From: an uncultured Litoreibacter sp. | GTDB taxonomy: Bacteria > Pseudomonadota > Alphaproteobacteria > Rhodobacterales > Rhodobacteraceae | Length of the DNA stretch: 64,000 nucleotides | NCBI GenBank assembly: GCA_947494645.1 | Contig: CANLVO010000001.1 | Coordinates: forward strand, 1,302,001 to 1,366,000 | Reading direction: 5' to 3' | Part shown: piece after piece, positions 2,689-4,728 of the stretch | How positions within the stretch are numbered: position 1 is the first letter of the stretch | How the letters are laid out: each line of letters opens with the position of its first letter | Translations under genes and position numbers: made by a program | Notes under the pieces: model-generated | What the model was told of the DNA's origin: nothing | What the model saw: only the letters and a program-made list of their open reading frames with translations | Databases searched by the model: none

Positions 2689-4107
2689 TCATTTCACGTC
2701 CTCCAACAAGGCCGCCAATTCGGTGTCGGAAAACACCACAGGATCAACCGAATCTTCACCATTGGGGCTTAGCTTCCATTTTGTCAGGTCCAATCCAAAA
2801 CCCAACGCGCGGGTCCGGATGGAATCCGCGTCTGTGTAGTTTTTAGCATCCCTCAAGGAGGTCCATATTGAAACAAGCTCAGTGATGTTCTGTCGGTCTG
2901 CCGCCGTAAGGCCATAGCCGTAATTCGGCTCTTCATTGTCCACGTCCAACCACGGGAATGACGGGTCAATTCCGAGGATGGAGAGTGATGCCGCGAGACT
3001 GTCGAGCGCATCTGCACCCCCATCCTTCCAAAGCGCATGAAGCCGCGCAATAGCGAGGGGTGTGTTCAGATCGTTTGAAAGCGCCTCTACGATACCTGCG
3101 TCCACCTTCGCAGGATTTGGTGCACGGTTTTCCAACCCGGTGCGCCAGCGTGTGAAATGCGCGCGGGCCTCAGCAGCCTTACGCTCCGTCCAGTCCATCG
3201 GTTTGCGGTAATGGGTGGACAGCATGACGAAGCGGATGATTTCTCCGGGGACGCCTTGATCCAGCAGATCGCGCACGGTGAAGAAATTGCCCAGCGACTT
3301 GGACATCTTCTTGCCCTCGACCTGCAGCATCTCGTTATGCATCCAGATATTTGCGAAAGCGTGGCCTGCGCATTTGGACTGGGCAATCTCGTTTTCATGA
3401 TGGGGGAAGGTCAGGTCGTTGCCACCGCCGTGGATGTCGAAGCGCTCGCCCAAAAGCTCGTAGGCCATGGCGGAGCATTCGATGTGCCAGCCGGGGCGGC
3501 CTCGGCCCCACGGACTGTCCCAGCCGGGCAGATCATCGGCGGAGGGTTTCCACAGGACGAAATCCATCGGGTCTTCTTTGTAGGGTGCGACCTCTACCCG
3601 AGCGCCGGCGATCATGTCATCGACGCTGCGACCGCTTAACTTTCCGTAATCGTCGTAGCTGCGAACCTTAAAGAGGACATGCCCCTCGGCGGCGTAAGCG
3701 TGGCCTTTCTCGATCAGGGTTTCGATCATCTTGACCATGTGGGGCACATAGGCCGTGGCGCGGGGCATTTCGTTTGGCTCCAGCGCACCGATGGCGGCCA
3801 TGTCGTCGAGAAACCACTGCGTCGTCTCGGCGGTGATGTCGGAGATATCGCGGCCCGTCTCGGCGGCGCGGGCGTTGATCTTGTCGTCTACGTCTGTGAA
3901 GTTCCGCACGTAAGTCACTGCATCCGCACCATATTCATGGCGCAGCAGGCGAAAGAGCATGTCGAACACTACCACAGCGCGGGCATTGCCCAGATGGGCG
4001 CGGTCATAGACGGTGGGGCCGCAGACATACATGCTGACCTTGCCCGGAGTGATCGGTGCAAGCTCCTGTTTGGAGCGGGTCGCAGTGTTGTAGAGTTGAA
4101 TGGTCAT
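2689..4107 (-). CDS. cysS: Cysteinyl-tRNA synthetase
   Basis: A class I aminoacyl-tRNA synthetase of 472 residues that charges tRNA-Cys. Visible signatures are the zinc-site Cys29 in VCGPTVYD, the HIGH-equivalent HLGN at residues 38-41, the zinc-binding segments [10 protein letters not shown] and [11 protein letters not shown] near residues 205-240, and the KMSKS loop in [10 protein letters not shown] near residue 270. Length matches the bacterial family (about 460-470). It is preceded on the same strand by a 14-codon ORF rich in TGC cysteine codons and a strong stem, suggesting control by the supply of charged tRNA-Cys. cimA follows 120 bp downstream. Confidence 0.97.
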
Positions 4108-4132
4108 GAGGCCTCACGCGCGCAGGGGGTGC

Positions 4133-4180
4133 GGCGGGCTTAGCAAACTCAATCTGTGAAGAAAATGGTTAAGACCCGCC
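4133..4180 (-). promoter_or_regulatory. Stem-loop between Cys-rich leader ORF and cysS
   Basis: On the minus strand GGCGGGTCTTA pairs with TAAGCCCGCC (one bulged T) around a 27-nt loop. It begins 8 nt after the stop of the cysteine-rich leader ORF and ends 25 nt before the cysS ATG. There is no U-run after it, so it is not an obvious intrinsic terminator. It could act on translation, RNA stability or Rho access. The placement is what makes it worth noting. Confidence 0.5.
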
Positions 4181-4188
4181 TGAATTGT

Positions 4189-4233
4189 TCAGATGGTAAT
4201 GCAGCAGCAAATGATGATGCAGGTCTTGGTCAT
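4189..4233 (-). CDS. Cysteine-rich leader peptide (14 aa) of cysS
   Basis: The minus strand reads ATG to TGA as MTKTCIIICCCITI: four Cys in 14 codons, all TGC, three of them consecutive, opening 126 nt upstream of the cysS start codon on the same strand. There is no Shine-Dalgarno; instead a TGCTAA hexamer ends 9 nt before the ATG with TTGCCT 15 nt further up, so the message could be leaderless or nearly so. Polycysteine short ORFs that sense cysteine or Cys-tRNA supply are established in mycobacteria; the analogy to cysS control here is my inference. The opposite strand gives a Met/Gln-rich frame with no gene downstream, so this strand is preferred. Confidence 0.55.
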   Translation of the reverse strand: MTKTCIIICCCITI

Positions 4234-4234
4234 G

Positions 4235-4264
4235 TGAGGGGCTTAGCACAGGGCCAGCCCCTCA
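4235..4264. other. 9-bp perfect hairpin upstream of the leader ORF
   Basis: TGAGGGGCT (4235-4243) and AGCCCCTCA (4256-4264) form an exact stem around 12 nt. On the minus strand it lies between the VOC gene stop (4274) and the Cys-rich leader ATG (4233). No U-run follows on either strand. It may be a processing or transcription-end structure for the VOC transcript, or it may overlap the promoter of the leader/cysS unit. Confidence 0.45.
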
Positions 4265-4273
4265 GGCAATGAT

Positions 4274-4660
4274 CTAGCTGTAGGAGACAACCTCGAACTC
4301 GATCCCGTCGGGGTCGTGGAAATAGAAGCGGCGGCCCGGCTCATAGTCGCCGTGCATCGTGGGCTTGAGGCCGCGGGCAATGACCTTGGCCTCGACCGCG
4401 TCGATATCATCGACCACGACGCCCACATGGTTCAGCCCACCGGTGGTGGTGTAGTTGCTGTTTGTCTTGGCCCCGACTTGGGTTTTTGGCGCATAGACCG
4501 CGAGATAGGTGTCGTCATTGCCCACATGAATGGTGTGGCCGCCATCCTTGGCCTCGCCCTGCCAGCGAATGTGCCAGCCGAAGAGGTCATCGAGCATCGC
4601 GGCCATTGCCTGCGGGTCAGAGGAGGTCAGGTTGAGGTGTTCGAGACGTGGCTCAGGCAT
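4274..4660 (-). CDS. VOC-family (glyoxalase/bleomycin-resistance type) protein
   Basis: This 128-residue protein has two beta-alpha-beta-beta-beta modules of the vicinal oxygen chelate fold. Its metal-ligand-type positions are LEHLNLTSSD at the N-terminus, GGLNHVGVVVDD near residue 72 and the closing FHDPDGIEFEVVSY. The substrate (glyoxal adduct, antibiotic or ring-cleavage dioxygenase type) cannot be decided. It is transcribed divergently from soxR, and its upstream region carries a SoxR-like box inside a 19-bp-spacer promoter pointing at this gene. A role in redox-cycler or electrophile stress is therefore likely. Confidence 0.85.
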   Translation of the reverse strand: MPEPRLEHLNLTSSDPQAMAAMLDDLFGWHIRWQGEAKDGGHTIHVGNDDTYLAVYAPKTQVGAKTNSNYTTTGGLNHVGVVVDDIDAVEAKVIARGLKPTMHGDYEPGRRFYFHDPDGIEFEVVSYS

Positions 4661-4697
4661 GGGAGTGCCCCTTCTTCTTTGATTACATGGTGAAACC

Positions 4698-4728
4698 AGT
4701 GTAATTCCTCAAGTAAACCTTAGCTCAA
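4698..4728 (-). promoter_or_regulatory. SoxR-type box in a 19-bp-spacer promoter
   Basis: Plus-strand 4707-4724 reads CCTCAAGTAAACCTTAGC, matching the E. coli soxS operator CCTCAAGTTAACTTGAGG at 14 of 18 positions (consensus from memory). On the minus strand it lies between -35 TTGAGC (4723-4728) and -10 TACACT (4698-4703), separated by 19 bp. This over-long spacer is the hallmark of MerR-family activated promoters. The promoter points at the VOC gene, whose ATG is 38 bp downstream of the -10; SoxR is encoded on the other side. Confidence 0.75.

Follow-up and report, generated by a model that had tools for sequence, protein, structure and literature searches.

The closest described system to the locus studied here is uORFC-8-2, a computational candidate with 145 examples upstream of cysS in the Rhodobacterales (PMC8632094, RNA Biol 2021). 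In the consulted sections of that article, ribosome-mediated attenuation is proposed, two prominent stems are described, the first with the Cys codons, the terminal U-run is taken as part of an intrinsic terminator, and the motif is reported exclusively in Rhodobacterales. Within the openly licensed literature the name uORFC-8-2 was found only in PMC8632094, and no experiment on the motif was recognized there from titles and the beginnings of abstracts. The cysS attenuator is already known as a prediction (2021, PMC8632094), which overtakes an earlier note on this DNA whose author knew of no alphaproteobacterial cysS case: such a case exists, and related bacteria widely retain it. In mycobacteria, leaderless polycysteine short ORFs were described as mediating cysteine-dependent attenuation of downstream genes (Canestrari et al. 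2020, PMC8764745, as reviewed in PMC9031893).

The window, by which we mean the whole stretch of 64,000 nucleotides that was analyzed, was read directly at this locus. Its minus strand holds a 14-codon ORF between 4233 and 4189, MTKTCIIICCCITI, with the codons ATG ACC AAG ACC TGC ATC ATC ATT TGC TGC TGC ATT ACC ATC TGA. Codons 9 to 11 are three tandem TGC, bearing out the earlier claim of a Cys-rich 14-codon leader ORF 5' of cysS with three consecutive TGC codons. That a complete ORF lies shortly before cysS on the minus strand also stood, with the distance corrected from 82 nt to 81 nt (4188-4108) between its stop codon and the cysS ATG at 4107. The gene at 4107..2689 is taken to be cysS from the earlier note and from known CysS sequence. 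The features from the leader promoter to cysS are the following.

4240..4269, minus strand: putative leader promoter P1, with -35 TTGCCT at 4269-4264 and -10 TA at 4245-4244
4189..4233, minus strand: very probably leaderless uORF MTKTCIIICCCITI, with Cys at codons 5, 9, 10 and 11, of a conserved family
4112..4115, minus strand: probable cysS ribosome-binding site, GAGG as read, its role presumed
2689..4107, minus strand: presumed cysS, cysteinyl-tRNA synthetase, 472 aa, read as an ORF, with usually one clear match per genome

Further upstream, the minus strand encodes a 128-aa ORF (4660-4274), which we take to resemble the glyoxalase/VOC superfamily. It ends 40 nt 5' of the uORF ATG, and the P1 -35 starts a few bases past its stop codon. 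Among the best 80 of 592 cysS matches, the closest relative belongs to an uncultured Litoreibacter (L001), with a CysS 85% identical over the best segment; such relatives presumably place the window's genome in the Rhodobacterales. When the genome that contains the window (3.44 Mb) was searched with a pattern of the uORF end, allowing up to three mismatches, one match was obtained, at this locus; a backward control pattern gave two.

The regions upstream of cysS were compared in two samples. The first, hereafter the top-match sample, came from a search of genome contigs and comprised the best 80 of 592 cysS matches, or 81 upstream regions with the window. The second, the order sample, was drawn evenly from the order and supplied 58 upstream regions from 61 genomes; the three not used were the genome of the window itself, one that had no match and one whose match was partial. 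The samples overlap (6 of 57 order-sample loci were at least 0.85 alike to the 80 loci), so that the 138 pooled regions are not all independent. The earlier note had let its idea stand or fall with the conservation of the ORF and its Cys codons; such a uORF was carried by 107 of the 138 regions in these overlapping samples, the first of which holds the best 80 of 592 matches. It had also proposed looking for Cys codons and a stem that are kept while the rest drifts, and this is the pattern observed: codons 2 to 7 of the uORF drift and the start, the stop, the Cys codons and the stems are conserved.

In the top-match sample (best 80 of 592 plus the window), 58 of 81 regions contained an ATG ORF of 8 to 22 codons with at least two Cys, ending at least 70 nt before cysS (with another, unrelated ORF also listed at two of these loci); 61 of 81 contained an ORF of 10 to 16 codons with Cys near its end. 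In these 61 uORFs, 172 Cys codons were in frame, 154 of them TGC and 18 TGT, compared with 5 and 8 in the other frames, and tandem Cys occurred in 46, both of which support an attenuator. The tandem started at codon 5 to 11, mostly 9, among uORFs that had been chosen at 10 to 16 codons. In the order sample, an ORF with at least two Cys was found in 49 of 58 regions, 40 of which also had the P1 spacing; the remaining nine include G198 and G200, whose spaced-Cys ORFs have tails exceeding the counting rule. The uORF is apparently absent from some loci, including L037 and L054 of Paracoccus and L040 and L064 of Gemmobacter. Chance controls from the same loci (897,306 bases, both strands counted) held 1,715 ATG ORFs of 10 to 17 codons, 45 of them with two or more Cys arranged as CC or CxC. 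The combination of at least two Cys with promoter spacing was found in none of the control ORFs and in 54 of the 61 top-match uORFs, whose ATG had been chosen in favour of the promoter where several were possible.

In the 61 top-match loci (best 80 of 592 plus the window), a TA started 14 to 12 nt before the uORF ATG in 58, a TTG stood at -36 or -35 in 49 and a C at -1 in 50, while an SD-like 4-mer preceded the uORF in 2; in this profile, the choice among several possible ATGs favoured the promoter. For uORFs with a single possible ATG, a set free of that choice and taken from the overlapping samples, TA was at the promoter position in 76 of 81, compared with 36 of 642 control ATGs from the same regions. 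A TTG or CTGG near -35 accompanied 69 of these 76, and SD-like 4-mers occurred in 5 of the 81. The fixed position of TA before the ATG indicates that transcription probably starts at or next to the uORF ATG, as P1 predicts, and the uORF is very probably leaderless. The leaderless appearance pointed out in the earlier note is thus strongly supported by the promoter position and by the near absence of SD motifs. A strict sigma70 consensus scan found no promoter here, either at P1 or at the second promoter-like element considered below (P2). Most alphaproteobacterial sigma70 promoters are described as lacking a -7T (PMC8407463), as do both P1 and P2, and a miss of P1 by the strict scan is expected where -7T is lacking. 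A sigma54 reading of TTGCT was ruled out, the profile having no GG at the right distance.

Downstream of the uORF start, three stems and a U-rich tract were delimited.

4219..4227, minus strand: stem A, 5' arm AAGACCTGC, uORF codons 3-5 (window fold; permutation tests)
4171..4179, minus strand: stem A, 3' arm GCGGGTCTT (window fold; permutation tests)
4180..4192, minus strand: hairpin C, CTGAA-CAA-TTCAG, reaching arm b, with the stop codon of the uORF inside (fold; permutation)
4175..4180, minus strand: stem B, 5' arm b, GGCGGG (permutation)
4133..4138, minus strand: stem B, 3' arm b', CCCGCC (permutation; predicted fold)
4141..4165, minus strand: TTTTCT-N17-TA with TGCTAAG (4145-4139), the U-tract of the published terminator and/or the putative second promoter P2

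The leader from 4233 to 4150 folded at -18.3 kcal/mol (z -1.8; 9 of 200 shuffles as good). Since this is only moderately better than shuffles, the window alone is no proof of a stem, and the support comes from comparison; the strong stem that the earlier note placed behind the ORF fared likewise, moderate in the window fold and upheld across relatives. The preferred fold of the window consists of A and C, with A predicted to enclose the Cys codons and hairpin C, and B is predicted once the leader lacks its first 28 nt. In this genome the 3' arm of stem A holds five of the six bases of arm b, which makes A and B mutually exclusive. By sequence comparison, stem B excludes both A and C, and matching changes preserve all three stems. 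The predicted folds are thus mutually exclusive ones between which a ribosome on the leader ORF could select.

The pairing was assessed by an alignment-free test in which the arms of each locus were compared with arms swapped between loci, near-duplicates having been removed. For A, uORF codons 1 to 6 were paired with the 16 nt that start at the final G of GCGGG; for C, the end of the uORF with the bases leading up to and into GCGGG; and for B, GCGGG with CCCGC. L050, L055, L063 and L071 were dropped from the 61 top-match loci (best 80 of 592 plus the window), leaving 57, or 47 after removal of near-duplicates. The z values for A, C and B were -7.6, -8.8 and -5.7 at n = 47 (controls -1.3 and -0.2), -6.0, -5.5 and -3.6 at n = 23 (controls -1.3 and -1.8), and -4.2, -3.6 and -2.7 at n = 10 (controls -2.0 and -0.9), all of them optimistic because the arms had been chosen after viewing the same sequences. 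B was weakest at n = 10, where 69 of 10,000 permutations were as good and one control reached -2.0. The order sample is the fairer test. Minus loci at least 0.85 alike, it consisted of 51 loci, in 35 of which a script assigned a uORF and arm b (a uORF is nevertheless present in several of the remaining 16), and at n = 30 the z values were -6.1 for A, -5.6 for C and -4.3 for B (controls -0.1 and -0.2), with none of 10,000 permutations as good for any of the three. The outer pair of B, scored in 55 top-match loci, was G:C in 24, C:G in 16, G:T in 1 and non-standard in 14. RNAalifold on a plain alignment yielded three pairs, none with both sides changed, because MAFFT misaligns the drifting uORF start, which is why the alignment-free swap tests were used. 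A search of Rfam with 3800-4700 gave no family match, the two sub-threshold matches both lying outside the leader.

From these comparisons we put the probability that cysS is controlled by a cysteine-responsive leader-peptide attenuator at roughly 85%. The leader ORF is rich in codons of the amino acid handled by the controlled gene, and the ribosome-stalling layout before cysS recognized in the earlier note gains support from the ORF, its Cys codons, the promoter position and the stems alike. RNA polymerase would start at P1, right at the uORF ATG or next to it, with ribosomes loading on the leaderless start. With ample Cys-tRNA, the ribosome would read through and leave, and the leader would close into an OFF fold in which stem A ties up the first codons of the uORF around hairpin C, itself tying up the stop codon, A and C together trapping arm b. 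If charged tRNA-Cys runs short, the ribosome would presumably stall on the Cys codons near the ORF end and block the 5' arms of A and C; the OFF fold would fail and more cysS would be made, the sense of the response being likewise presumed. In the read-through RNA, arm b would pair with b' as stem B. The sensor and the switch are well supported by the comparative data, whereas the read-out is not. Output is the least certain step. The option we favour is the published one, that transcription ends intrinsically at the U-rich tract following A; this tract may also, or solely, belong to a second, basal promoter P2.

Folding with a stalled ribosome was simulated in 52 loci, after L074, L077 and three loci without an SD-like 4-mer had been dropped. 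Removing the RNA up to the leading edge of the ribosome raised the mean predicted pairing of B from 0.25 to 0.63, a rise that arises partly by construction since the removal takes away the competitors of B. Pairing rose by more than 0.1 in 27 of the 52 loci and did not in 25. Stem B would form only after the polymerase passes the supposed terminator, so that a pure termination model leaves it without a job.

The U-rich tract itself admits more than one role. In the window, the U-run is TTTTC at 4165-4161 within an interrupted tract (AACCATTTTC); a terminator scan of the window found no intrinsic terminator, and the tract overlaps the P2-like element. According to the most viable rival, which is compatible with the attenuator and to which we give somewhat less than an even chance, P1 and the uORF form a regulated booster, and TTYY-N17-TGNYA is P2, supplying basal cysS transcripts that start in or just after b'. 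The U-run would then be mainly the P2 -35, and the output from P1 would be Rho-dependent or act through stem B rather than through intrinsic termination. The pattern, counted without L061 and L078 (contig ends), is enriched both with and without the uORF: in the top-match sample (best 80 of 592 plus the window) it matched 49 of 61 uORF loci (shuffles, 1.4) and 8 of the 18 loci scored without a uORF (shuffles, 0.28), the 18 including L036, which has an 18-codon uORF and no match. It also matched 36 of 51 order-sample loci, 10 of these among the 16 without an assigned uORF and arm b. Its persistence in 8 of 18 loci scored without the ORF suggests that it may be a second cysS promoter. The bases between its halves carry little information, and the tract lies anywhere from 7 to 18 nt away from arm b, both consistent with a promoter; in the window, P1 and P2 moreover share TGCTAAGCCC as well as the lack of -7T typical of alphaproteobacterial sigma70 promoters (PMC8407463).

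Against P2, its -35 half is without the TTG that is described as over-represented in most groups, apparently including Alphaproteobacteria (PMC8407463), the sigma70 consensus scan did not find it, and 12 of the 61 top-match uORF loci have no match. The spacing was exactly 17 nt in 50 of 52 loci, but the best-fit choice leans towards 17; spacing 16 shows a peak too, since T-runs can slide by one, and spacing 22 matches 15 of the 61. The rigid spacing fits a promoter, and the roles of terminator and promoter may coexist. The stricter version, a second promoter inside the switch with the U-run as the -35 of a basal cysS promoter, b' as its start region and no intrinsic termination, we regard as rather doubtful. 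If it were true, P1 transcripts would carry the cysteine-sensing leader and P2 transcripts would escape it, with about 140 nt acting simultaneously as a sensor, a switch and a basal promoter. G198 (L177) and G200 (L199), in which, by eye, the uORF and GGCGGG are present and the U-rich tract is absent, offer a natural experiment on the terminator idea. Among loci scored without a uORF, L027, L029, L040 and L051 keep TTYY-N17-TGNTA; L051 also keeps CCCGC, suggesting recent loss of the attenuator.

Translational attenuation is a less probable form of output. In this reading, b' pairs with the cysS SD region in the OFF fold and stem B frees the SD. In isolation, b' does fold onto the SD region in many loci, and narrow pairing tests gave z of about -2 (n = 45) and -1.5 to -2.4 (n = 17); however, the whole-hairpin swap test (z -0.14) and the first pairing test (z +0.5) were flat. 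The narrow and whole-hairpin tests dropped L053, L038, L058, L062, L074, L077 and L070. RNA starting after b' had a more open SD (0.55 versus 0.41, n = 52), but the SD exposure that the reading itself calls upon hardly differed between free and stalled leaders (0.385 versus 0.405, P = 0.15), with an increase in 25 of 52 loci and a decrease in 14. Ten loci in which no uORF was scored were not more open: their SD exposure spanned 0 to 0.8, on either side of the mean of 0.42 for uORF loci.

It is very unlikely that the peptide itself acts, either by arresting the ribosome or as a small peptide that binds metal or thiols, in place of codon-dependent stalling. The end of the peptide is conserved beyond its Cys, with Ile making up 29% of residues in the 61 top-match uORFs (best 80 of 592 plus the window), and the 14-aa peTrpL of S. 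meliloti has a reported function of its own (PMC10117765), but in the same 61 uORFs the Cys vary in number (1 to 5) and spacing, and are in tandem in only the 46 counted above, and codons 2 to 7 drift. That the uORF is a chance ORF without function is, on the comparative counts, the in-frame Cys codons, the promoter position and the permutation tests of the stems, virtually excluded, and we conclude that it is not one.

A survey of the class covered 142 genomes, of which 137 besides the window's own matched cysS; the upstream regions of 60, mostly high scorers, were taken, one of them (G022) from the same family as the window and one (L106) incomplete. Among the 59 from other families, 4 had a short ORF with at least two Cys before cysS, none of these with P1 spacing and none with P2; a short ORF that ends in Cys and has P1 spacing occurred in none of the 59. 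Two of the four are possible distant analogues beyond the Rhodobacterales: G057 (L117) has MSNAHTIFICPIICR, an ORF ending in FICPIICR, and G052 (L088) an ORF ending in CIIDWIICDR, both before cysS. The MDxxxICYR-like mini-ORFs of G135 (L100), G097 (L107) and G081 (L118) were rejected as probably the out-of-frame end of an upstream gltX-like gene; such readings are a trap for uORF surveys. In the window's own genome, no ORF of 6 to 25 codons with at least two Cys was found within 600 nt upstream of the cysE match (start unrefined). The best cysKM match, below the cut-off and with its start unrefined, has a MTRCGIGYC ORF 539 nt upstream, without P1 spacing.

The locus agrees with uORFC-8-2 in its target cysS, the order, the AUG uORF with tandem Cys codons that are mostly UGC, the presence of predicted stems around it and the U-run (PMC8632094). 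It differs in that tandem Cys are usually at positions 14 and 15 there and start at codon 5 to 11, mostly 9, here; in that the consulted text of PMC8632094 does not use the word leaderless and mentions neither a second promoter nor a stem arm beside cysS; and in that G057 may be a case outside the family. What goes beyond that text is the predicted leaderless start, stem B and the P2-like element. A start of this kind, a competing third stem and a rigid promoter-like element in the supposed terminator tract change what experiments should measure. The S. meliloti trpL leader is likewise an alphaproteobacterial leaderless 14-aa ORF of a transcription attenuator, but it precedes a Trp biosynthesis gene (PMC10117765), whereas the Cys codons of this locus stand before the gene of a tRNA synthetase. 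The mycobacterial polycysteine ORFs, as described in PMC9031893, share the leaderless short ORF (leaderless here by promoter position), the contiguous Cys codons and the cysteine-dependent attenuation, proposed in our case; they belong to a distant phylum, cysS is the target here, and the likeness is one of description. If the leaderless start is true, similarly laid-out leaderless ORFs of cysteine codons would be present in two distant phyla, by descent or by convergence.
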